DNA of 64,000 nt, taken from the NCBI RefSeq assembly GCF_003367245.1, contig NZ_QRGR01000015.1, positions 62,001 to 126,000 of the forward strand. Direction: 5' to 3'. This DNA comes from Pontibacter diazotrophicus. GTDB taxonomy: Bacteria > Bacteroidota > Bacteroidia > Cytophagales > Hymenobacteraceae. The notes beneath the pieces were generated by a model. That model was not told the origin of the DNA. It searched no databases and saw only the letters and a program-made list of their open reading frames with translations. Both the position numbers and the translations under genes were made by a program. Positions 26,058 through 49,193 of the stretch are shown here, in pieces (position 1 is the stretch's first letter; each line of letters opens with the position of its first letter).

Positions 26058-27266
26058 ACTTGTTTTTCTTTCTTTGGCGTATCTGCCTTAAATATACCGT
26101 TTTTTTCTCTTGTATAGTTTTCGTGTTACGCTTCAGCTCCCTTACACAGAGTCTTTTTTCACCTTTCCACAACTCTTAACACCTAATAACTTTTATAAAA
26201 TGTTTTATCTTAAATATCTTTCTTTCATTATAAGGTGTGTTTATAAGTGGACAACTTTACTCAATTATGTTTACTGCCTATAACTTGTTTACAGTTCTCT
26301 TCCTTTTCACCAGCACCTGTTCAGATCTGTGGATTTTATATTTTTCTGTTTCAGTTGTTTAGCCTGCTTATCCACTTTCTCCTCTTTTTTGTGTATTTCT
26401 TTTTACACACTAAACAAATACGTGGAAAGTGTACGATTACACAGTGACTTGTACACCTTAATCCACTTTTTGGTCCTTACACACCTGTGTTTTCACCCTT
26501 ACACTTTGGGGTGTGTAAGTTGTCCTGCGGTTTACCCACGTTTATCCACACATATTCCACCCCTTCTGTGGATTACTCTTTTTTGTTTCTTCTTCTAGTT
26601 TTCTCTTGTCAGGAAGGCTCATTATTGTACGCCTATTTTTGAAACTGTGCGTGTGTACTATTATTATACAGGTGTAAATTATCGGAGAGATTACACCTGC
26701 ACTTCAGATCATCGTGCTGTGTAAGTAGCAGACTTCGTACACTTACACTTTTTATTTCTAAACTTAGATAAGGCTGAACTATGGGTTAGTTGATCTGCGG
26801 GGTGTCAGTTATAGAGGAAGCAGGAGTAGATGAGTTGTTAGAATGGTATAGCAGTAGCCGCATTCAAAACATATCCAGGAGCAACCTGAAATCTTGTTTT
26901 TGCCTCCTGCCATTAAGTGGTTAAGTTCAGAATTTGATAGCAGATGATGACGGAGGTGCAGTTGCAGATGGGGTATGCCAATACGAACAATGGTGATGCA
27001 ACTGGCAACTTTTATGTTTCGATTTGCTTACCGGTAAGTGTTGCTGCAGTTGGTATAGTCAGAGTAAAATGGCTACAGAAAATTTGCGGTAGAATGACTG
27101 TAGCCTCAGGAGTCAAAAGTAATTTAAGCCCGTCGCTGAAGGAATGAAAGGAGGGAAGAGTTGAAAGTAATTGTGCTATTGTAGCTTCTTTTTATTTCAT
27201 TATCATCCGGTGCCATAAAAAAAAGGGAGACCGTTTGGCCTCCCTTTCTTATCAAATTTAAGTTTT
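26058..27266. other. Candidate chromosomal replication origin region (oriC)
   Basis: About 1.2 kb without a credible gene. By hand count 26101-26640 has roughly 70 G and 121 C, while 26641-27180 has roughly 141 G and 81 C on the plus strand, so the skew flips from C>G to G>C near 26.65 kb, the direction expected at an origin. DnaA-box-like words (TTATNCACA) lie on the left side: TTATCCACA at 26542-26550 (exact), TTATCCACT at 26368-26376, TTTTACACA at 26401-26409 and TGTGGATTA at 26567-26575 (one mismatch each), plus several with two mismatches. A very AT-rich block at about 26187-26240 could unwind. A perfect parS lies 5 kb away. No computed cumulative skew supports it here. Confidence 0.55.
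27216..27249 (-). terminator. Terminator at the end of the mnmG operon
   Basis: A stem AAAGGGAGACC / GGCCTCCCTTT with flanking A and T runs reads on the minus strand about 20 bases beyond the stop of the Ig-like lipoprotein gene. Confidence 0.75.
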
Positions 27267-29841: not shown

Positions 29842-31704
29842 TTATTTACCCAGGTATACCATTAGTACTGAAATGTCAGCTGGCGTAACGCCACTGATTC
29901 TGGAGGCTTGCCCGATTGTCTCCGGGTTTACCTTCAGCAGTTTTTCTTTTGCCTCAGCTGATAAGGCAGGTATGTTACGGTAATCTATTCTCTCTTTGAT
30001 GATGTAGTTTTCAAGTTCGCTCATTTTGGCGGCCATGCTATACTCTTTCTCAATATAGCTCTCATACTTTACCTGTATGCCTGCCTGCTCCACGCTGTCT
30101 TCTCTGAACTTGCTCAAGTATTCTGCCACCGATGGTACTGCCGCTGCGATGTGCTCTATCTCTACATTCGGACGCTTAATGAGCTGACCGGCTCGCTGCT
30201 TTTCTGTGATGGGAGCCGAGCCTAAACTTTCCAGCATCATGTTGATATCTCCCGGCTCGATCGGCTTATTATTTAAGTAAGCGATGATTTCACCTGTTTC
30301 CTCGATCTTCTTATCCACAGCTTTTTTACGAGATTCATCCGCTAAGCCTAGCTCATAGCCAAGCTTCGTTAAACGGATATCAGCGTTATCCTGGCGCAGC
30401 AGGATGCGGTGCTCAGCACGTGAGGTGAACATGCGGTAAGGCTCATTGGTGCCTTTGTTTACCAGGTCATCAATCAACACTCCGATATAAGCTTCTGAAC
30501 GTTTCAGCACGAATGGCGCTTTTTCGTTTATCTTGTTATGGGCATTTATACCCGCCATTAATCCCTGGCATGCGGCCTCTTCGTAACCGGTGGTTCCATT
30601 TATCTGGCCGGCAAAGTACAGGTTCTCTACCAGCTTTGTTTCCAGCGTCAGGTTAAGCTGCGTTGGCGGGAAAAAATCGTACTCGATGGCATAGCCAGGG
30701 CGGAACATTTTAGCGTTCTCAAATCCTTCAATTTTGCGCAGAGCTTTTAGCTGCACATCTTCCGGCAGGGAACTGGAGAATCCATTCACGTATACTTCCA
30801 CTGTGCTCCATCCCTCTGGTTCAACAAAAATCTGGTGACGGTCGCGGTCTGCAAAGCGATTGATTTTATCTTCAATGGATGGGCAATAGCGCGGTCCCAA
30901 TCCCTGGATACGGCCCTGGAACATTGGCGATTTCTCAAATCCCGTTTTCAGAATTTCGTGTACCTCTGGATTGGTGTAGGTGATATAGCAGCTGCGTTGT
31001 TGTGGCAGTGGCTCTGTGTTGGTATAAGAAAACTTTGATGGCTTCTCGTCTCCGAACTGCTCTTCCATTCTGCTGTAGTCTAGTGAGCGGCCATCTACAC
31101 GCGGAGGTGTACCGGTCTTCATGCGGCCAGCTTCAAAGCCAAGTTCAACGAGTTGCTCGGTAATGCCTTTGGCCGATTTTTCAGCGGCACGCCCCCCTCC
31201 TAGTTGCTTTTCTCCGATGTGGATAATACCATTCAAAAACGTGCCATTGGTTAATACAACGGCCTTTCCACGTATAGTTATCCCCAGGCTTGTGCGCACA
31301 CCGGCTGCTCTACCATCTTCTACTTCTATGCCTGTTATCATCTCTTGCCAGAAGTCGATGTTCTCTGTTTGCTCCAGAGACAAACGCCAGGCTTCTGCAA
31401 AACGCATGCGGTCACTTTGCGCGCGCGGGCTCCACATGGCCGGGCCTTTTGATTTGTTAAGCATGCGAAACTGGATCATGGTCTGGTCGGTGATGATACC
31501 GCTCATACCACCCAGTGCATCCACCTCGCGAACAATCTGGCCTTTGGCCACACCGCCCATGGCAGGGTTACAAGACATTTGTGCAATGGTGTTCATGTTC
31601 ATAGTTGCTAACAGCACCTTTGAACCCATCTTGGCTGCAGCGGCAGCGGCTTCGCAGCCTGCGTGCCCAGCGCCAACAACAATGATATCGTATTCTGGAA
31701 ACAT
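29842..31704 (-). CDS. mnmG: tRNA 5-carboxymethylaminomethyluridine synthase subunit MnmG (GidA)
   Basis: An FAD-dependent enzyme that, with MnmE, modifies the wobble uridine U34 of certain tRNAs. The 620-residue protein starts with the dinucleotide-binding motif [18 protein letters not shown] (about 6-23) and carries family signatures [38 protein letters not shown] and [13 protein letters not shown], plus the C-terminal helical MnmE-binding region. The gene name gidA reflects its frequent location near replication origins in other bacteria, which fits the skew switch 3 kb downstream. A perfect parS palindrome sits 19 bases before its start. Confidence 0.96.
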
Positions 31705-31722
31705 GTATTCTGATTTTTAGGG

Positions 31723-31740
31723 ATGTTTCACGTGAAACAT
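31723..31740. promoter_or_regulatory. parS centromere-like ParB binding site
   Basis: ATGTTTCACGTGAAACAT is a perfect 18-bp palindrome containing the 16-bp TGTTTCACGTGAAACA that is the canonical chromosomal parS consensus. It lies in the 66-bp gap between ybeY and mnmG. ParB binding here would load condensin and segregate the origin region. I found no second perfect copy in the window by eye. Confidence 0.85.
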
Positions 31741-31770
31741 CTGCAGGAGGTTGGTAATTCCTTTTTGCGA

Positions 31771-32199
31771 TTAAAATTTACGCAAAGATAAGGAAGAATC
31801 TTCTTGTTTGCGCATAAGTCCTTCTTCCTCTTCAGTCTTATCTCTGAAGCCAAGCAGGTGAAGTACGCCGTGAATGATGACCCGGTGAAGTTCATCATCA
31901 AAAGAAATGCCTAACTCAACGGAGTTGTCGCGCACCCGGTCTACGCTTATAAAAATATCACCTTCAATAATGCCCTCTTCGTCGGCATTATTGAAGGTGA
32001 TGATGTCTGTGAGGGTATCGTGATCAAGGTACTCCACGTTAATCTGGTGGAGGTAATCATCGGAGCAGAAAACGTAGGTGAGGCTACTTAGCTCTTGTCC
32101 GTGTTGCTCTATTACTGTTGCGATCCATTCCGAAACCTGGTCTGGGTTTTTTAGCTCAAAATCAATATCCTCGCTAAAAAACTCAATTGGATGTTCCAT
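31771..32199 (-). CDS. ybeY: Endoribonuclease YbeY (rRNA maturation factor)
   Basis: A metal-dependent RNase involved in 16S rRNA 3'-end maturation and ribosome quality control. The 142-residue protein has the family core LTDIITFN and the metal-site segment RVIIHGVLHLLGFRDKTEEEE with His110 and His114. The third ligand, a histidine six residues later in most bacteria, is Asp120 here; I recall the same GYKDK-type wording in other Bacteroidota, so it looks like a lineage variant rather than a defect. The gene overlaps the end of the upstream RsbW-like gene by 17 bases, implying coupling. Confidence 0.9.
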   Translation of the reverse strand: MEHPIEFFSEDIDFELKNPDQVSEWIATVIEQHGQELSSLTYVFCSDDYLHQINVEYLDHDTLTDIITFNNADEEGIIEGDIFISVDRVRDNSVELGISFDDELHRVIIHGVLHLLGFRDKTEEEEGLMRKQEDSSLSLRKF

Positions 32200-48794: not shown

Positions 48795-49193
48795 TTATTG
48801 CTTCTCCAGTTCCTCTACCGGCACAAACTTCATGGATAGTGAGTTTACGCAGTGGCGTATGTTCTTTGGCGTCAGGTATTCGCCGGCGAATACGTGGCCC
48901 AGATGTGCCTCGCAGTTAGCGCACACAATCTCGGTGCGGCGGCCGTCGGCATCCGGCACGCGCTTCACGGCTCCGGTTATCTCATCGTCGAAGCTTGGCC
49001 AGCCGCAGTGAGAATCAAATTTATACTCTGAGGTATAAAGCGGATTGTTGCAGCGCTTGCACAAGTATACACCTTCTGCTTTGTTGTGCTCATACTCCCC
49101 TGTTCCCGGGTATTCGGTGCCTTTGTTTACAATGATGCGTGCTTCTTCTGGTGTAAGCTTACTATATTCTGATGGGTCTTTCGCTACTTTCAT
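48795..49193 (-). CDS. msrB: Peptide-methionine (R)-S-oxide reductase MsrB
   Basis: A thiol-dependent repair enzyme that reduces the R epimer of oxidised methionine. The 132 residues show the zinc-site CxxC pairs (Cys45/48 and Cys91/94), the GWPSFDD motif (64-70), and the catalytic Cys115 in RHCVNSLSMKF. No signal peptide, so it is cytosolic. Complete standalone MsrB without an MsrA fusion. Starts just before the msrB terminator region described separately. Confidence 0.95.
   Translation of the reverse strand: MKVAKDPSEYSKLTPEEARIIVNKGTEYPGTGEYEHNKAEGVYLCKRCNNPLYTSEYKFDSHCGWPSFDDEITGAVKRVPDADGRRTEIVCANCEAHLGHVFAGEYLTPKNIRHCVNSLSMKFVPVEELEKQ

Follow-up and report, generated by a model that had tools for sequence, protein, structure and literature searches.

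Introduction

A consensus for chromosomal parS sites was reportedly presented by Livny et al. in 2007. In the available text of PMC7383237 this consensus is given as TGTTTCACGTGAAACA, and the Noc-binding site NBS, TATTTCCCGGGAAATA, is also a 16-bp palindrome that belongs to the same ParB/Noc family. The genes gidA-gidB-parA-parB-dnaA-dnaN and others have been described as an ancestral origin cluster (PMC2099444, in the part available). It has already been stated that oriC is commonly distant from dnaA in Bacteroidetes (PMC4755523, excerpt), and parS has been used together with skew to place the origins of gut bacteria, two of which, Bacteroides caecimuris and Muribaculum intestinale, are Bacteroidetes (PMC10197239). 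In these two organisms parS lies near the skew-defined origin, which is not necessarily at dnaA, and the accessible sections of that report make no mention of a link to mnmG or of the distance to parAB. Here we describe a site in a 64,000-nucleotide stretch of the Pontibacter diazotrophicus genome, referred to below as the window.

Results

An exact parS consensus in the gap before mnmG

Positions 31724-31739 of the window agree with the palindromic consensus TGTTTCACGTGAAACA at 16 of 16 bases, and this core is contained in the perfect palindrome GATGTTTCACGTGAAACATC (31722-31741, no strand assigned). An initial annotation of this DNA had recognized the exact consensus and its palindromic setting; its estimate of 18 bp for the palindrome was too short, since one further base on each side brings the length to 20 bp. 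The site occupies a 66-bp gap (31705-31770) between mnmG (gidA), which encodes a tRNA uridine modification enzyme (29842-31704, minus strand; NCBIfam TIGR00136, 843.9 bits), and its upstream neighbour ybeY, which encodes an rRNA maturation RNase (31771-32199, minus strand; NCBIfam TIGR00043, 102.7 bits). The distance from the 16-mer to the mnmG start is 19 bases. This spacing, the size of the gap and the identity of the downstream gene were all as first annotated. For ybeY, the nearest named species, Pontibacter pamirensis (Hymenobacteraceae, Cytophagales), stands at 98%.

The length of the palindrome is weak evidence when taken alone. A 20-bp palindrome is not very rare by itself, being reached in one of 30 first-order Markov sequences, and length was therefore dropped as an argument for parS. 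Counting near matches is equally uninformative: the window contains one site with at most 3 mismatches to TGTTTCACGTGAAACA against 0.40 expected, and at least one such site appeared in 34 of 100 shuffles, which is not significant. The strong evidence is the exact identity to the parS consensus. The same 16-mer read backwards, used as a control, had no exact match in 99 genomes, and this result, together with conservation across families and the linkage to mnmG documented below, refutes the notion of a chance palindrome or of a site for some unrelated regulator, the probability of which we regard as negligible. The window holds a second perfect palindrome, GTATTCGCCGGCGAATAC, of 18 bp at 48876-48893.

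All 20 bp of the palindrome are kept in 22 of 24 sequences from the genus, and the rest of the gap is variable. Compared with described sites, the 16-mer is identical to the chromosomal consensus and forms a single site near a skew-defined origin, while the 20-mer equals the DNA of the Caulobacter ParB-parS crystal, as given in the available text (PMC7383237). The site differs from NBS in having, at both variable positions, the bases of parS.

Copies and protein partners in the genome

A search of the P. diazotrophicus assembly (6.4 Mb, 88 contigs) revealed one exact site, one with a single mismatch and five with two mismatches; the backwards-read control gave 2 matches at up to 2 mismatches. 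A genome-wide motif search had been advised when the site was first annotated, and its outcome, a single exact copy in 6.4 Mb, indicates that such sites are not widespread. The single-mismatch site (C4:151642-151657; L002:1501-1516) is on the same contig as parS, 58 kb away, and its mismatch disrupts the central symmetry. One of the two-mismatch sites (C4:129187-129202; L003:1501-1516), 35 kb from parS and shared with the relative G022, falls within a long open frame and for this reason was rejected as a second parS.

The genome encodes one ParB above the family cut-off, located behind a ParA; the two make up its single ParA-ParB pair. The presence of parB, on which the initial annotation had made its reading depend, is therefore confirmed. 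Mapping of the pair relative to parS showed that it is not beside the site: parAB is on contig C36 (L210:6785-8501) and parS on contig C4, so that this is not a ParABS locus with linked genes. Judging from their sequence, the genes that follow parB presumably encode a DUF5683-type protein, DapB and LepB. Judged by eye in alignments to solved ParB structures, the protein possesses R173 and G201, not the Noc residues, and these two are tied to specificity for parS rather than NBS in the portion of PMC7383237 available. In the same alignments positions 179, 184 and 172 hold Y, K and K, respectively; the last differs from the serine listed in that source as the conserved contact S172. From its predicted sequence, this is a ParB with parS-type specificity residues, as expected of a cognate partner. 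An SMC-type protein is encoded in an open frame of 1185 aa, a difference from B. caecimuris and M. intestinale, in which no known condensin was detected (PMC10197239). About 50 kb from parS, a 370-aa open frame at C4:43299-44300 (L215) has a RecF/RecN/SMC-type match. Genes for recF are frequent origin neighbours, and we would guess that this one is possibly recF.

Linkage of parS to mnmG

In a sample of 99 genomes that includes our own, the exact 16-mer is present in 58, as a single copy in each. In 55 of these the site precedes the mnmG HMM match by 29-34 bp, in one it is 483 bp from the match, and in the remaining two (G065, G077) mnmG is on another contig. We examined mnmG with 0.5-0.8 kb of upstream DNA in these two and in the other 41 genomes (n = 43). 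A site with at most 3 mismatches was found upstream of mnmG in 29 of the 43, and the backwards control was found in none; when 4 mismatches were allowed, the numbers were 33 and 4. Altogether, parS is upstream of mnmG in 85 of the 99 genomes (56 + 29). The 14 that lack an upstream site are of several kinds. Three from family f2 (G061, G080, G095) have neither a ParB match nor any parS-like site, a joint absence that favours the parS reading. Two from f14 are also devoid of a parS-like site, with ParB below the cut-off in G073 and yet above it in G089. Six (G052, G057, G072, G086, G065, G077) have a site elsewhere, and in three (G067, G068, G076) the best upstream match has 4 mismatches. Two genomes that are 89% and 84% complete (G085, G091) gave no ParB match but do carry a 3-mismatch site by mnmG; as in G089, the occurrence of ParB and that of parS disagree here, which counts against the parS reading. 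In G058 (L172) the sequence TGTTTCCCGGGAAACG, about 98 bp upstream of mnmG, combines a Noc-type CCCGGG core with parS-like ends.

The association extends beyond this sample. Across the phylum the exact 16-mer occurs in 211 of 395 genomes and the backwards control in 2 of 395 (exact copies counted; 184 genomes are without one). Among the loci listed, mnmG is within 0.8 kb of the site in all 29 besides our own. From the 395 genomes we picked one carrier for each of 30 additional families of Bacteroidota; in 20 of them the locus retrieved has mnmG next to the site, and in another four (G101, G120, G261, G293) a different exact site is no more than 0.6 kb from mnmG, so that parS is within 0.6 kb of mnmG in 24 of 30 families, a proportion that is conditional on the exact site for which these carriers were chosen. 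In three of the others the two are 7-13 kb apart (G128, G273, G405), and the last three have them on different contigs (G111, G204, G433). Among the phylum-sample matches there are recurrent pairs of sites separated by about 1.9 kb, equal to one mnmG length, and in Nonlabens and Flavobacterium loci parS-type sites flank mnmG on both sides. The 36 named loci that were found by way of ybeY distinguish between the two neighbouring genes. Thirty-one contain mnmG, and in every one a site with at most 3 mismatches ends 10-25 bp before its start; the five without mnmG, one of which ends right after ybeY, have no site at all. This comparison shows that parS accompanies mnmG rather than ybeY. Among the matches listed from the open-licence literature, in the portions available, we found no report of a link between parS and mnmG.

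So close an association raises the question of whether the palindrome is mainly an operator, at which ParB or another dimeric regulator tunes expression of mnmG from 19 bases before the start codon. The uniform 29-34 bp spacing in 55 of the 58 exact-copy genomes would suit such a role, as would the repression by ParB of genes beside parS3 and parS4 in P. aeruginosa (PMC5521831, in part). However, there are reported species whose parS-adjacent genes do not respond to the loss of ParB (PMC7022226, in part), and in other families the site is downstream of mnmG, on both sides of it, or several kb off. This variability in side and distance argues against a promoter-specific function, so that regulation of mnmG is unlikely to be the main role of the palindrome, and we assign the operator a probability that is low indeed.

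A second possibility is that the sequence persists as a relic and that ParB now uses other sites. Two genera of the same family, g4 and g5, have a parS-like site 26-28 kb from mnmG, with none beside mnmG in g4, and our own contig has the single-mismatch site at 58 kb. Against this stand the retention of the 20-mer within the genus, the exact copies by mnmG in distant families and the broken central symmetry of the 58-kb site. We therefore consider a relic even less probable than an operator.

Distance of parAB and dnaA from parS

The separation of parB from parS is general. In 12 of 13 family genomes it amounts to 36.7-48.6% of the chromosome and in the thirteenth, G052, to 25.3%; the ranges are 0.3-35.8% in four genomes of the order and 11.1-47.8% in 19 of the phylum. 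In 35 of the 36 genomes measured parB and parS are separated by at least 11% of the chromosome, although these counts are not independent, because the genomes share ancestry. Where a genome has no exact copy, the position of mnmG or of the closest variant was used for parS, and 6 of the 25 genomes of one set, each with more than one contig, were left out. Among those measured, parB adjoins mnmG only in G096 (1.2 kb); in G081, from the same family as G096, parB is 1.5 kb away. In Hymenobacteraceae parAB is close to the predicted terminus. The locus therefore differs from a typical chromosomal parS in that parB is 25-49% of the chromosome away in the 13 family genomes and the site is beside mnmG. 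The dnaA gene is also remote, at 14.0-37.9% of the chromosome from parS in the same number of family genomes, values for which 8 of 13 chromosome lengths were rounded and 9 of 13 assemblies consist of 2-3 contigs.

GC skew places parS near the origin

With our own assembly in 88 contigs, we turned to relatives to sample the skew. In G022 (one contig, 5.46 Mb; 20-kb samples) it passes from negative to positive between 1.40 Mb and the parS sample at 1.505 Mb, and returns to negative between 3.97 and 4.23 Mb. The equivalent change in G059 (4.82 Mb) occurs between 4.27 and 4.42 Mb, an interval that includes parS at 4.361 Mb, and the skew reverts between 1.62 and 2.10 Mb, with a value near zero in the 1.85 Mb sample. 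The change of sign at parS in these two complete relatives supports the initial proposal that the site is an origin-proximal parS. Five further genomes were sampled at 0.2, 0.4, 0.6 and 0.8 of the chromosome, and 19 of the 20 samples agreed in sign with an origin near parS.

On a fine scale the picture is less precise. Skew minima are 2.8 kb from parS in G022, 11.7 kb in our contig and 41 kb in G059, where the minimum is broad. The minima found within 80 kb in the five further genomes are at +22.9 kb (G128), -3.8 kb (G273) and +13.5 kb (G088), and by the edge of this interval at -33.7 kb (G405, near the edge) and +40.0 kb (G069, at the edge). Across parS in G069 the local skew changes in the reverse direction, from positive to negative, and the four local bins of G405 are all positive. 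With minima scattered from -34 to +41 kb, exact placement of oriC by cumulative skew was rejected.

The initial annotation had noted a skew switch 5 kb to the left of the site. A local flip does exist there: within a 1.2-kb AT-rich intergenic gap at 26058-27266 (GC 0.38, no strand assigned) the skew changes from about -0.25 to positive near 26.75 kb. It is not the contig-wide minimum of cumulative GC skew, which lies to the right of parS at a distance of 11.7 kb in our 164-kb contig, near 43 kb of the window. The gap has three DnaA-box matches with at most 1 mismatch, and a long gap is present at a similar place in G022 and a shorter one in G059. We infer that it is the best oriC candidate in the window. 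Against it is the location of the contig-wide minimum elsewhere; the longer genes between 28.9 and 43 kb are on the minus strand, with which a minimum at about 43 kb fits better than an origin at 26.7 kb.

A DnaA-box-rich stretch ends at parS

The 28 kb on the mnmG side of parS (3724-31723, no strand assigned) contain 21 matches to the DnaA box TTATCCACA with at most 1 mismatch, and the equivalent stretches of G022 and G059 contain 26 and 20. On the other side the numbers are 5, 1 and 9, respectively, and the background, determined in 37 stretches of G022 and G059 only, is 6.2 per 28 kb. In all three genomes there is thus an approximately threefold enrichment on the mnmG side, which falls sharply at parS. 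In our genome it extends across the 28 kb and is not confined to the gap at 26058-27266. When the letters of TTATCCACA were reordered, none of 1679 other orderings reached its sum, although an overlapping one was close in ratio, and TTATCCACA ranked first among the 9-mers compared. Five more distant genomes gave mixed results. In G088, 20 DnaA boxes are found in one 5-kb bin on the mnmG side; G128 and G273 have small clusters 34-40 kb from parS, that in G128 adjoining a dnaA match; and G069 and G405 have no DnaA-box excess near parS. Because the enrichment is strong in our genome, G022, G059 and G088 and absent in these last two, it was rejected as a rule for the phylum.

Discussion

The site itself is a textbook parS, the standard bacterial "centromere". 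Taken together, the exact consensus, its near-uniqueness, the genes for ParA, ParB and an SMC-type protein, the position relative to the skew and the linkage to mnmG most likely identify a ParB nucleation site near the origin, and on these genomic grounds we hold it very probable that this palindrome serves a ParABS system as its chromosomal parS near the replication origin, and predict that ParB binds it. By analogy with the family, ParB made from the distant parAB operon would bind this high-affinity site, close as a CTP-dependent clamp and slide into the adjacent DNA. ParA would then move the ParB-covered, newly copied origin region apart, and ParB may also load the SMC complex at parS.

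What is unexpected is that many families of the phylum keep parS by one and the same tRNA-modification gene, with the partner genes of the site usually far away. In terms of the ancestral origin cluster, as described in the available part of PMC2099444, mnmG (gidA) and parS are still together near the origin, whereas parAB and dnaA are far off in nearly all genomes measured. The linkage may most simply be a remnant of that cluster, which parAB and dnaA have left and in which parS and mnmG have stayed.

We also put forward, tentatively and as a possibility that may well prove wrong, that selection holds parS and mnmG together across Bacteroidota as a unit anchoring the origin. ParB nucleation would have been kept beside mnmG, while dnaA left and, in Hymenobacteraceae, parAB moved toward the terminus, so that ParB from low-copy, late-replicating genes would act on a distant origin. 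In Hymenobacteraceae parS would in addition form one edge of a DnaA-box-rich domain, a position that, if this is correct, could couple initiation to segregation.

The rule that we propose is that the mnmG-parS junction lies near the origin in much of Bacteroidota, where dnaA often fails as a marker. If it holds, the junction would serve to mark the origin in genomes and metagenome bins, and would provide a case in which parAB moved far off and the cis-site of the ParABS system remained beside an ancestral origin gene.
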